Positions 1,245-10,935 of a stretch of 64,000 bases of DNA are shown here, in pieces. The stretch spans positions 209,532 through 273,531 of the forward strand of contig PHEY01000006.1 of NCBI GenBank assembly GCA_002841335.1. The letters run 5' to 3'. The notes beneath the pieces are model-generated. The model searched no databases. It saw nothing but the letters and a program-made list of their open reading frames with translations, and had not been told where the DNA came from. Source of the stretch: Actinobacteria bacterium HGW-Actinobacteria-2. Lineage in GTDB: Bacteria > Actinomycetota > Actinomycetes > Propionibacteriales > Propionibacteriaceae. How positions within the stretch are numbered: the stretch's first letter is position 1; each line of letters starts with the position of its first letter. Both the position numbers and the translations under genes were made by a program.

Positions 1245-2889
1245 GGCGCTGCGGCTCGGCTCGGCGGTTGCCGGGCGGGGCTGGCCGCGTCCGCGCACGG
1301 CGGAGGTGGCGGTGCGCGACGGCGCACGGATCGACCACTTCCGGCGGCTGAGTGACCGTCCCGATCGGGCGTGGACGCATGTCGGGGTGATCAGTGAGGC
1401 CGCCATCGGACCGGCTGATCTGGCGCTCATCGACGGCGTGTTGCGCGCTCGGGTGCCGGAAGCAGACGGGGCGGTGATCTACGAGTTCTACGAGACCGGC
1501 TGGCAGCGCGCCGCCGAGCAGGTCTGGACCGCGCCGCTGCGTCCGTCCGTCCCGACGGCGGCTGAGTTGGGCGTGCCCGCCGACCTGCTCGGCTCGGTGG
1601 CGGCCTTCGACGCTGACTGGCCCCAGGCGGTGGCCGAGATCGGCGGAGCGGTCTACTCCTACCAGCGGCGCCCCGATCAGCGCTGGCAGCGTTCGGCCTG
1701 CCTGCGGGTGGGATCGGAACCGGTGCGCGAGGCGAGCAGTTCCTCGGTGAAAGTCGCCCAGATCACCGGCGAGCGGGATGCCACCCCGACGCCGTGGGGG
1801 GAGCGGACGCCGACGCTAAGCAGGTCCCGTTCGAGTGCGGGGATCCGCGGCACCGACCTCGGGGTGCGGGTCGAGCACTGTGGACGCAGCTTCCTGCTGT
1901 TCGGCGACACTCATTGGACCCGGCCGTGGCTGGTACTGCGGGACTCGATCGCCGAGGTGTTCAGCGACGGTGGTCTTCCGGAGGTGCGGTTTCACGGCTC
2001 ACCACTGCGCGTGCGTGGCCAGGGCGTGACCCGCGGCGAGTACGACGTGCCGCTGGACGCGTTCGGTCATGGCGATGCGTTCTATGCGCTGTTCAGTTCG
2101 AACCACGGCCGCGACCGTCAGGTGATGGGACGCAGCGTGCTGGCCCGCTGTGCCACCGCTGAGCCGGTGATCGATCCGGCGCTGCGGCGCCGTCCGATCG
2201 TGTTTGACACTGTTGCGACGTTGAGCGACTGGCACTTCATCAACGTCTCCGTGCAGCGCCGTCCGGCAGCCGAGGTGCCGGGGGTCGGCGGCGACGGTGA
2301 GGTGTTGTTGATCTGGGGCACCGGCAGCTACCGGTCCTCGGAGGTTCGCCTGGCCATGCTGGACGCTGTCGCGCTGGACCGGCTGGAGCGGCTGCGTGGC
2401 CAGATCTCGACCGCCCAGCTGGGCCTGCGCTATTGGGACGGTGACGCCTGGGTCGGCGATGAGGAATCGGCTGCACCGCTGTTTCGTCCGGGCGCCTATG
2501 GTGAGCTCAGTGTGCGCTGGGTGCCGGCGGTCGGCCAGTACGCGATGCTGCTGGCCACCGGGCCCGGCGATGCGGCCGGCAGTGCGATCACCCTGCGCTG
2601 GTCGACCACCCCGGCCGGGCCCTGGACGACCCGGCTGCGGCTGTTGGACTGGGTGGCCGAAGGCATGACGCCCGATCCGTTCACTCGGTTCATCAAGGCC
2701 AGCGCGGACGACCCGGTTGCCGAAGCGATCTTTCCGGCCCAGGCGAAGGGCAACGGGGCGGCGTATGCGCCCTACTTCTTCGACGCCCGCCGTGACGGTG
2801 CTGATCTGTTGATGCGCTACACGCTGTCCACCTGGAACCCCTACCAGGTGGTGCTGATGGAGCACCGCTTGGTGCCCGGCGAGTTCTAG
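1234..2889 (+). CDS. DUF4185-type protein of unknown function
   Basis: A 551-residue soluble protein without a signal peptide. From about residue 200 it has the look of DUF4185 / five-bladed beta-propeller glycosidase-like proteins: GTDLGVRVEHCGRSFLLFGDTHW, repeated W- and G-rich strands such as SDWHFINVSV, GEVLLIWGTGSYRSS and YGELSVRWVPAVGQYAMLL, and an end of the type MRYTLSTWNPYQVVLM. No catalytic residues can be assigned. It starts inside the end of the GT87 gene and is probably co-transcribed with it. Its stop codon interlocks with the stop of convergent nifB, sharing the bases CTAG. A carbohydrate-related function is a guess from the fold type and neighbour. Confidence 0.6.
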   Translation: MSAEALRLGSAVAGRGWPRPRTAEVAVRDGARIDHFRRLSDRPDRAWTHVGVISEAAIGPADLALIDGVLRARVPEADGAVIYEFYETGWQRAAEQVWTAPLRPSVPTAAELGVPADLLGSVAAFDADWPQAVAEIGGAVYSYQRRPDQRWQRSACLRVGSEPVREASSSSVKVAQITGERDATPTPWGERTPTLSRSRSSAGIRGTDLGVRVEHCGRSFLLFGDTHWTRPWLVLRDSIAEVFSDGGLPEVRFHGSPLRVRGQGVTRGEYDVPLDAFGHGDAFYALFSSNHGRDRQVMGRSVLARCATAEPVIDPALRRRPIVFDTVATLSDWHFINVSVQRRPAAEVPGVGGDGEVLLIWGTGSYRSSEVRLAMLDAVALDRLERLRGQISTAQLGLRYWDGDAWVGDEESAAPLFRPGAYGELSVRWVPAVGQYAMLLATGPGDAAGSAITLRWSTTPAGPWTTRLRLLDWVAEGMTPDPFTRFIKASADDPVAEAIFPAQAKGNGAAYAPYFFDARRDGADLLMRYTLSTWNPYQVVLMEHRLVPGEF

Positions 2890-4181
2890 CCGCAGCCGGT
2901 GCCGGGGCCGTCGCAGCTGGTCTTGCAGTCGCGCTCGGGTAGCGCCCGGCGCGGCTCGCGTCCGGCGAAGACGTCCCCGACGGCCTCGCTGATCAGGCCG
3001 TCGGACTCGAAGACTTTGACCCCGGCACCTTTGAGGACCATCCGTGGAGTGCCGCCCAGCTGGTGACAGATGAGGGCTTGGCAGTCGCTGATCAGGCCGG
3101 CCAGCATCGCCCAGCGTCCCGCGCCGCCGCCGGTCGGAGGGGTGCGGCGCTTGTCGATCAGGCGCGGGCTCGGCCGCCCGTCAACGCTGGTGTTCTCGTA
3201 GATGAGCAGGAAATCCGCGCCACCCAGGTGCTGGTTGACCAGGTAGCCCTCTTGGCTGCAGACGGCGATGTAGGGCCGGTCTTTGGCGGGGGCTTTGGCG
3301 GCCCAGAGCCGGTCGATGGCGGTTTGGTCGTGGTCGTCGCCGAGCATGCCGACGGCGTCGGCGCGGCAGCGTTGGCAGTGGGTCATTTGGGCGATGTGGG
3401 CCTCAGCGGCTTGGCGGGCGGTGGCGATCTCGGCTGGGTCGGGGGCGCGCAGTTCGCCGAACGGGGTGCCGTCGACCGGGTACAGGGGCAGGTTGTTCAT
3501 GGTGTCGGCACCGAGTTCGGCGGCGACGCGGGCGACGTCGGCGATGCCGTCCAGGGTGACGCCGGGAACCAGGATGGTGTTGATCTTCACCGTCACCCCG
3601 CGGGCCTTCAGTCCGGCGATCGCTTCTTTCTGGCGGGCGATGATCAGTTCGCCGGCGGCGCGGCCGCGCAGGATTTCGCGTCCGTCGCGGACCCACCGGT
3701 AGATCTGGCCGGCCACGTCGGGGTCGACGGTGTTCATGGTGATGGTGACGTGGCTGATGCCGAGTTCGGCGATCGCGTCGAGGTGGGCGGGGACTTCCAG
3801 GCCGTTGCTGGACACACACAACAACAGGTCGGGGTGGCGTTCTTTCACCAAGGCGAGGCTGGCCAGGGTTTTGGTGGCGTTGGCGAAGGGGTCGCCGGGG
3901 CCGGCGATTCCGACCACGGCCAGGTTCGGCACTTCGGCACGGACGCGGTCGACGTAGTCGGCGGCTTCTTCGGGGGACAGGACGGTGGAGGAGACGCCGG
4001 GGCGGGATTCGGAGACGCAGTCGAACTTGCGGTTGCAGTAGTTGCATTGCACATTGCAGCGGGGTGCGACCGGCAGGTGTACCCGCGCAGTCCGGCTGCG
4101 CGCGTCCTCATCAAAACAGGGATGCTCACTGGTCGACAGCGGGGACGTCGACAGGGTGGCCGGGGTCGTGGAGGCGGTCAT
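2886..4181 (-). CDS. nifB: nitrogenase FeMo-cofactor biosynthesis protein NifB
   Basis: NifB is the radical-SAM enzyme that builds NifB-co, the 8Fe-9S-C precursor of FeMo-co. The 431-residue protein has the SAM-cluster motif C42-x3-C46-x2-C49 within CNVQCNYCNRKFDC, followed by the NifB-specific ESRPGVSS. After the barrel (about residues 30-290) a C-terminal NifX/NafY-like cofactor-binding domain runs from about 315 to 410 (key stretch ISDCQALICHQLGG), and the tail is Cys/Gly-rich (RDCKTSCDGPGTGCG). It is the last gene of the nif operon, 12 bases after nifN, with a CGGAG-type Shine-Dalgarno sequence. It abuts a convergent gene with interlocked stop codons, so no terminator separates them. Confidence is high. 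Confidence 0.95.
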   Translation of the reverse strand: MTASTTPATLSTSPLSTSEHPCFDEDARSRTARVHLPVAPRCNVQCNYCNRKFDCVSESRPGVSSTVLSPEEAADYVDRVRAEVPNLAVVGIAGPGDPFANATKTLASLALVKERHPDLLLCVSSNGLEVPAHLDAIAELGISHVTITMNTVDPDVAGQIYRWVRDGREILRGRAAGELIIARQKEAIAGLKARGVTVKINTILVPGVTLDGIADVARVAAELGADTMNNLPLYPVDGTPFGELRAPDPAEIATARQAAEAHIAQMTHCQRCRADAVGMLGDDHDQTAIDRLWAAKAPAKDRPYIAVCSQEGYLVNQHLGGADFLLIYENTSVDGRPSPRLIDKRRTPPTGGGAGRWAMLAGLISDCQALICHQLGGTPRMVLKGAGVKVFESDGLISEAVGDVFAGREPRRALPERDCKTSCDGPGTGCG

Positions 4182-4193
4182 GGGGGACTCCGT

Positions 4194-10085: not shown

Positions 10086-10110
10086 GGCTGCTCCTCAGTC
10101 CGGGTCCGGC

Positions 10111-10935
10111 TCAGGCGACTTCGAGCATGCCGTGCTCGAGCAGGAGCGACTCCAAGGTGTCGGTCTCCATCGGCTTGGGGATCACGAACATGTCGTTCTC
10201 CTCGATGGCCTTGGCGAGCGCGCGGTACTCATCGGCCTGGTTGCAGGTCGGGTTCCACTCGATGACGGTCTTCTTGTTGATCTCGGCGCGCTGCACGTCG
10301 TTGTCCCGGGGGACGAAGTGGATCATCTTGGTGCCGAGCTCGCGGGCGAAGTGGTCGATCAGCTCGTACTCTTTGTCGACATTGCGGCTGTTGCAGATGA
10401 TGCCGCCCAGACGCACGGTGCCGGTGGTGGCGAACTTCTTGATGCCCTTGCAGATGTTGTTGGCGGCGTACATCGCCATCATCTCCCCGGATGCCACGAT
10501 GTAGATCTCCTCGGCCTTGCCCTCGCGGATCGGCATGGCGAACCCGCCACACACCACGTCGCCGAGGACGTCGTAGAAGACGTAGTCAAGGCTCTCCTCG
10601 TAGGCGCCGAGGCGCTCCAGGAGGTTGATCGAGGTGATGATGCCGCGGCCGGCGCAGCCGACGCCCGGCTCGGGACCGCCGGACTCCACGCACTTGGACT
10701 TGCTGAAGCCGTCAGCCAGGACGTCCTCGAGTTCGACGTCTTCGCCCTCCACCCGCAGGGTGTCGAGGACGGAGCGCTGGGCCAGGCCGCCCAGCAGGAG
10801 CCGGGTGGAGTCGGCCTTGGGGTCGCAACCGACGACCATCACCTGGTTGCCCATTTCGGCCAGCGCCGCGACCGTGTTCTGAGTGGTGGTGGACTTGCCG
10901 ATGCCACCTTTGCCGTAGATAGCTACCTTGCGCAT
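10111..10935 (-). CDS. nifH: nitrogenase iron protein NifH (dinitrogenase reductase)
   Basis: NifH is the ATP-dependent electron donor to NifDK and is also needed for cofactor maturation. I start it at ATG 10935, preceded by the Shine-Dalgarno GGGGAAGG; 28 upstream in-frame residues are not NifH-like. The 274-residue protein has the P-loop GKGGIGKST, switch regions [10 protein letters not shown] and [15 protein letters not shown], and the two [4Fe-4S] cysteines in GVGCAGRGI and DVVCGGF. The arginine of GRGIITS is the residue ADP-ribosylated by DraT in some diazotrophs. It is the first gene of the operon, 25 bases before nifD, and no nifI genes lie between them. Confidence 0.97.

Follow-up and report, generated by a model that had tools for sequence, protein, structure and literature searches.

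Two published accounts come closest to the locus described here. Group II of Howard et al. 2013 is defined by a 52-residue insertion in NifD and, in the available text of that paper, comprises standard molybdenum (Mo) nitrogenases with a short NifK (PMC3760896); the words actinobacteri-, actinomycet-, Frankia, and Propionibacter- are absent from its main text, whereas our host is an actinobacterium. Koirala and Brozel 2021, in the portion available, count 21 actinobacterial genomes carrying all six genes nifHDKENB, of which 18 are from Frankia, two are unclassified, and one is a Propionibacterium; this last and one of the unclassified pair fall into Cluster IIC together with Verrucomicrobium nif (PMC8399215); an accessible passage of PMC11768025 cites such an analysis and calls it supported by biochemical evidence. 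The Frankia nif genes (Cluster I) also specify an actinobacterial Mo-nitrogenase, but the operons presumed to be from Frankia form a separate clade and encode a NifD without the insertion and a longer NifK. We analyzed a nif operon in a 64,000-nucleotide stretch, called the window below, of contig PHEY01000006.1 from Actinobacteria bacterium HGW-Actinobacteria-2, a member of the Propionibacteriaceae. Judging from sequence, it probably encodes a working Group II Mo-nitrogenase that was, most simply, acquired once from a non-Frankia lineage and that is probably switched by the host's nitrogen regulator GlnR.

The operon occupies the minus strand from window position 10935 down to 2886 and consists of six intact frames in the order nifH-D-K-E-N-B, with intergenic gaps of 25, 13, 1, 1, and 12 bp, just as a sequence-only reading of this DNA had placed them within 8 kb. 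nifH (10111..10935) encodes a nitrogenase iron protein of 274 amino acids (aa) that scores 456 bits with TIGR01287 (cut-off 394), and nifD (8376..10085) encodes a protein of 569 aa. They are followed by nifK (6980..8362), whose product has 460 aa when counted from the ATG, a longer frame opening at 8431; nifE (5614..6978; TIGR01283, 605 bits); nifN (4194..5612), named by its position, the order being that of most related operons; and nifB (2886..4181), with a radical SAM domain plus the C-terminal part (TIGR01290, 371 bits). NifH, NifK, NifE, and NifB pass the curated NCBIfam cut-offs. No second nifH was found in the window's genome, where three other places match over 36 to 45 residues only (E values of 2e-5 to 4e-4). 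The predicted minimal nifHDKENB set for a Mo-nitrogenase, with NifN assigned by position, is complete in one genome.

Its anatomy is that of Group II. In our alignment, the insertion after the EFAHRDDYEG motif measures exactly 52 residues in the window NifD, as it does in Clostridium pasteurianum NifD, and three NifD of the Frankia family show a gap opposite it, their identity as Frankia being presumed; the insertion of roughly 50 residues named in the sequence-only reading, and its absence from Frankia, are thus borne out. The window NifD is also extended by about 40 residues at its N terminus relative to that of C. pasteurianum. NifK aligns to 1mio_B from residue 1 and is indeed the matching short form. 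Among solved structures, NifH is closest to 1cp2, NifD to 4wes/1mio (about 586 bits, versus about 408 for Azotobacter-type chains), and NifK to 1mio, all of which we take to be C. pasteurianum nitrogenase structures.

Several features point to an enzyme in use. Residues C94, C120, C185, C306, and H526, presumably the ligands of the P-cluster and of the iron-molybdenum cofactor, are invariant in an alignment of eight NifD. Across 11 gene comparisons between nif genomes of the genus (five genes for the window against G004 and six against G008), dN/dS ranges from 0.05 to 0.18, and the nif genes are under purifying selection. Their GC content (64 to 69%) and third-position GC content (GC3; 0.87 to 0.93) match those of the flanking clpC (68% and 0.90) and the 67.7% of the window, so the operon is as G+C rich as its surroundings, as had been claimed. 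A functioning nitrogenase would be the best reading of the selection, the NifD ligands, and GC3.

To place the operon, we took the best 80 of 571 NifD loci in a scan of named genomes. The NifD tree contained 49 rows, hand-picked from 101 extracted NifD to span the groups, plus C. pasteurianum, the sole clostridial reference, on a long branch and in this tree only; a second tree, with 39 rows, combined NifH, D, K, E, and B, NifN being left out and NifB missing in three. In both of these quick trees, the genus of the window's genome is sister to L038, a metagenome-assembled genome (MAG) from another lineage of Actinomycetota, and the two form one clade with a support of 100. The next nearest sampled sequences come from Armatimonadota, Acidobacteriota, and Verrucomicrobiota, with no firm branching order among the three; the Verrucomicrobiota are among the near neighbors, in trees that do not include the strains of PMC8399215. 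A tree constrained to unite the genus and the Frankia-family rows is worse by 715 log-likelihood units (p-AU, the P value of the approximately unbiased test, 3.2e-54), which places the operon outside the Frankia-family clade, and joining the genus and L038 with four insertion-type operons from other genomes of the phylum is likewise rejected (p 0.016). The label "clostridial-type" given to the operon therefore holds for the insertion and the short NifK and does not extend to its nearest sampled kin; clostridial in anatomy, the operon is not evidently so in source. The proposal of a separate route of nitrogen fixation into the actinomycetes agrees with the rejected Frankia kinship, but it was already in print, since six-gene non-Frankia actinobacteria appear in the available part of PMC8399215.

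Another gene is consistent with the host assignment. The window's genome (2.92 Mb in 14 contigs, 98.6% complete) encodes a methylmalonyl-CoA mutase nearest to 1req, which we take to be the Propionibacterium shermanii enzyme (1269 bits, versus 1146 for the next molecule). The operon is not confined to one actinobacterial chromosome, as the sequence-only reading had it: of the 30 genomes of the genus, 8, the window's included, have NifD, and it is absent from the six genomes of other genera of the family and the 24 of other families of the order that were searched. A class-wide draw of 394 genomes yielded NifD in 25 of the 393 besides the window's, all from one family, presumably the Frankiaceae. 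In a phylum-wide draw of 396, ten other genomes had a NifD match, all from the same phylum and none from the same class; six of these matches are long and cross the insertion, three lack it, and one is weak (33% identity). One of the eight NifD-bearing congeners, G018, is 9% contaminated, carries this type of ClpC gene twice, and has no more of NifD than a fragment; it was left out of the seven-genome comparisons.

Within the genus, the operon lies at a definable site. On its left is a gene for a DUF4185 protein (1234..2889, plus strand), found near clpC in seven nif-less congeners, and on its right, beyond the mod genes, one for a ClpC-type ATPase (17107..19683, plus strand). The order DUF4185, nif, mod, modD, clpC is found on a single contig in the window's genome and in G008, the two nif genomes with both flanks on one contig (DUF4185-clpC distances of 14.2 and 15.9 kb), and is split over two contigs in each of G007 and G019. 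G003 has the DUF4185 side plus nifV on one small contig, and the nif contig of G004 ends short of either flank. In G023, nifD and clpC look interrupted only because of runs of N. Among the 22 nif-less congeners, 7 have a DUF4185 match, in all 7 with clpC on the same contig at a distance of 1.5 to 8.0 kb and with the best modB match on a different contig; these seven scorable genomes have an empty site. A ClpC tree covered 28 of the 30 genomes (G006 has no match, G025 only a distant copy, and G003 is represented by 23% of the columns) and joins the seven nif genomes other than G018 in one clade, with modest support (80/73). The ClpC of L038 is 64 to 71% identical over two main pieces, compared with at least 78% for the best within-genus matches, G025 (54%) excepted. 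One gain of the operon in one subclade is the simplest account.

Divergent from nifH is a set of plus-strand genes for molybdate uptake. A helix-turn-helix protein with a TOBE domain, probably a molybdate-responsive regulator (11440..11841), is followed by modA for the molybdate-binding protein (11852..12613; TIGR01256, 119.6 bits, cut-off 62.5), modB for the permease (12621..13472; TIGR02141, 223.8 bits, cut-off 182.6), modC for the transport ATPase (13469..14539), named by position because it scores below the modC cut-off and other ATP-binding cassette models score alike, and modD (14910..15863; TIGR01334, 180.2 bits, cut-off 178.85). L038 likewise has modA and modB beside nifH. In trees, however, the nif-linked and unlinked ModABC copies of the genus intermix, and on this phylogenetic evidence the mod genes beside nif appear to belong to the genus's own stock. 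Either nif and mod were united inside the genus or the mod genes recombined later; the idea that the mod operon traveled together with nif is weakened accordingly.

The fate of nifV differs between species. Downstream of nifB, G007, G008, G019, and G023 have a nifV-like gene and then a gene for a TMEM175-type channel, families that were tested by model for G008. This potassium channel gene (L172:8093-8851, with counterparts in G007, G019, and G023) is absent from that place in the window. There, the DUF4185 gene directly adjoins nifB; the unlinked nifV-like gene is on contig 8 (G000:C8:444379-445455), near a phosphofructokinase gene and a CrcB-like gene; the notion that the window's genome lacks nifV was dropped once this gene had turned up. 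In G004, a 3.9-kb contig carries the nifV-like gene together with two of the same neighbors (79% and 94% DNA identity), which implies that the move predates these two species, and that of G018 also adjoins a neighbor from the contig-8 place. Overall, the 8 of 30 genomes that have the nifV-like gene are those that have NifD, and of the other 22 congeners, 18 have only a homologue with 28 to 34% identity and 4 have no match. The phosphofructokinase gene (L230:4573-6804), a few genes away from the nifV-like one, encodes a 743-aa tandem protein that scores 976 bits with the model for the eukaryote-type fused 6-phosphofructokinase (cut-off 708).

Control of the operon probably rests with the host. 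The two PII-like genes (nifI1/nifI2) are not present in the short space between the window's nifH and nifD. Among 96 loci with both genes, this gap is below 200 bp in 25 and at least 700 bp in 69, the remaining two measuring 285 bp (L193) and 509 bp (L066); the long space of L039 holds two P-II genes, nifI1/nifI2, and short gaps are also found in L038 and ten other named loci (Verrucomicrobiota and Acidobacteriota). Upstream of nifH (10936..11439, minus strand), we found a conserved GTAAC-n16-GTTAC-n6-GTAAC footprint with a GlnR-box-like core palindrome at 11103-11118. The seven nif genomes compared, the window's included, share CTGTAACAC, 16 bases, GTTAC or TTTAC, six bases, and GTAAC; the exact GTTAC-n6-GTAAC occurs in five of them, among these the window's, and the one-base variant TTTAC in two. 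In the space between two neighboring ammonium transporter (amt) genes, a looser GTnAC-n6-GTnAC box lies upstream of the second; a GTAAC-n16-GTAAC, read by eye, precedes the first. In the accessible text of PMC10704036, the GlnR box of S. venezuelae is given as GTnAC-n6-GTnAC, and P. acnes is among the species with GlnR sites. We infer that nif is probably under GlnR control at the level of transcription. This would resemble Paenibacillus, in which transferred nif genes are under the indigenous GlnR; as described in an available passage of the same source, however, Paenibacillus GlnR belongs to the MerR family, whereas Streptomyces GlnR is OmpR-like and dissimilar (PMC6191146).

We propose that the Fe protein, the MoFe protein, and the scaffold and starter enzymes of the cofactor are products of this operon; homocitrate would come from the unlinked NifV-like enzyme and molybdate through the divergent mod operon. 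An ancestor of one subclade of this Propionibacteriaceae genus would have gained the operon, most simply once, from a non-Frankia lineage whose nearest sampled relatives are another actinobacterium and then the Armatimonadota, Acidobacteriota, and Verrucomicrobiota branches; the operon may then have settled next to mod genes of the genus's stock, with the DUF4185 gene on one side and clpC on the other, and been inherited from there. Without nifI1/nifI2, switching would probably be transcriptional, via GlnR. The gene content, the insertion, the trees, the site, nifV-like co-occurrence, selection, and the conserved box are what we observed; N2 fixation itself, GlnR binding, the electron donor, and the direction and number of transfers are what we infer. 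A bolder version, to which we give even chances, is that the whole subclade consists of free-living diazotrophs with a rewired foreign Group II nitrogenase that has no NifI switch, a delocalized NifV in some species, molybdate uptake from host stock, and OmpR-like GlnR control unlike that by NifA or Paenibacillus GlnR.

A number of observations weigh against this account. NifD misses the TIGR01282 cut-off by 7 bits (646.3 versus 653.55), plausibly because of its 52-residue insertion. NifN scores 279.0 bits against a cut-off of 326.8, the NifEN and NifK models score slightly higher, and its similarity to solved NifK chains (up to 252 bits) exceeds that to solved NifN (182 bits), for which reason it is named from gene order. 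The best family of the contig-8 candidate is nifV, at 287 bits with a cut-off of 463. A single clade of nif-linked mod genes is rejected (p-AU 0.002). As to the site, G023 has the island and its clpC side without any DUF4185 match, a DUF4185 match is lacking in 15 of the 22 nif-less congeners, which are hence unscorable, and G018, which bears NifD, falls outside the nif subclade of the ClpC tree. The 2.9-Mb genome has no second exact GTTAC-n6-GTAAC (one palindromic site, none for the control), 0.7 being expected from base composition, so that the rarity of the box proves nothing; GTnAC-n6-GTnAC is found twice, at nifH and amt, in 122 kb of this genome, with 1.1 expected. With counts this near to chance, only the position and conservation of the box carry weight.

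Other origins have to be weighed. Direct transfer from a Clostridium-like firmicute would explain why the NifD insertion and short NifK are shared with C. pasteurianum, also the best solved relative. Yet these traits are common to insertion-type operons of many phyla, no Clostridium-labeled record is among the best 80 of the 571 NifD loci, and C. pasteurianum falls outside a 36-row clade with a support of 99 in the quick NifD tree, with its one, long-branched clostridial reference; we consider such a transfer very improbable. An operon already present in the ancestor of the genus and then lost by most species, instead of being gained once in a subclade, seems unlikely to us: the modest ClpC support, the interspersion of nif-linked and unlinked mod genes, and the related operon of another actinobacterium, L038, would suit it, but it requires many losses and sits poorly with the absence of NifD from the other genera and families searched.

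Two further explanations concern the DNA and the enzyme themselves. Most congeners are drafts and G018 looks contaminated, as one might expect if the nif contig were a binning artifact with DNA from another organism; we find this hardly credible, given that the window lies within a 351-kb contig and its G008 counterpart within one of 1.56 Mb, with the same host flanks (DUF4185 and a 90% identical clpC), and that nif GC3 agrees with the host. For the window and G008, these long contigs with common flanks rule out contamination or misassembly. The enzyme might also be made without being used for N2, for example, as a degenerate, homocitrate-poor nitrogenase left behind when nifV quit the operon. 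The unlinked nifV-like product of the window's genome shares 65% identity with its linked counterpart in G008 and falls below the NifV cut-off, but the linked form does so too (296 versus 463), a NifV-like gene accompanies NifD in all eight genomes, purifying selection is strong, and the five NifD cluster ligands are kept, which makes disuse quite improbable. An acquired and working Group II nitrogenase remains our preferred explanation.

In the portion available, PMC8399215 reports the same six non-Frankia nif genes grouping with those of Verrucomicrobium and gives their placement only; what we add are the insertion site, nifV, mod, regulation, and the distribution within the genus. Among the open-licence papers listed, we found no fuller account of nif in the Propionibacteriaceae and no report of the nif island, its empty site, the behavior of nifV, or the putative GlnR control; in the available text of a 2026 paper that includes a Propionicimonas isolate, the three isolates named as bearing nif do not include that one (PMC13286885). 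New here are the anatomy of the island, its distribution, and a possible native regulation, which extend and do not overturn the known picture. The operon supports the view of at least two entries of nitrogen fixation into the class of Actinobacteria that contains Frankia, the second with an anaerobe-type enzyme. It also offers a natural example of how a minimal foreign nif set is wired into an actinobacterial nitrogen network, and one genus provides species with and without nif, as well as a defined empty site, for comparison.

Selenocysteine at Cys62 of NifD has been described, in the available text, in three Group III NifD only and as covariant with Ala at position 92 of NifK (PMC3760896). 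In our set, 4 of 101 NifD have an in-frame TGA at this P-cluster codon, all from the same phylum as the window, three without the insertion and one with it. The other 97 comprise 96 with Cys at site 62, of which 2 have TAG or TAA near the N terminus, and one fragment short of the site. The three without the insertion (L195 to L197, from G228, G119, and G153; codon 51) resemble the known Group III selenocysteine NifD and have Ala at NifK 92. The insertion-type, Group II NifD with TGA (L193, identical with L024, from G391; codon 53 of the match) goes with Ser at NifK 92 and breaks both published rules, restriction to Group III and covariation with Ala92; coming from one draft genome, it is possibly a sequence error. 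The nifE of this locus also ends in TGA. L077, with Ala at NifK 92 and an ordinary Cys62 in NifD, likewise runs counter to the covariation that Howard et al. 2013 report. For a hairpin following the TGA, the signal is strong in L026 (z of -3.5) and moderate in L024 (-1.6), and L028 gives no support (-0.2).

Six other loci (L084, L089, L094, L095, L096, and L114; four labeled Desulfobacterales or Desulfobulb- and two only Proteobacteria) have nifHDK followed by a weak NifB-like match (28 to 34%), and neither nifE nor nifN was matched in the DNA examined. In a Desulfofustis MAG (L109:12311), the nifK match begins 2.3 kb after the nifD start, in a frame of 242 residues only, and the gene is possibly interrupted. 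Elsewhere in the window, an APH-type phosphotransferase domain and a class-III aminotransferase domain share a single frame of 988 aa at 34511-37477.

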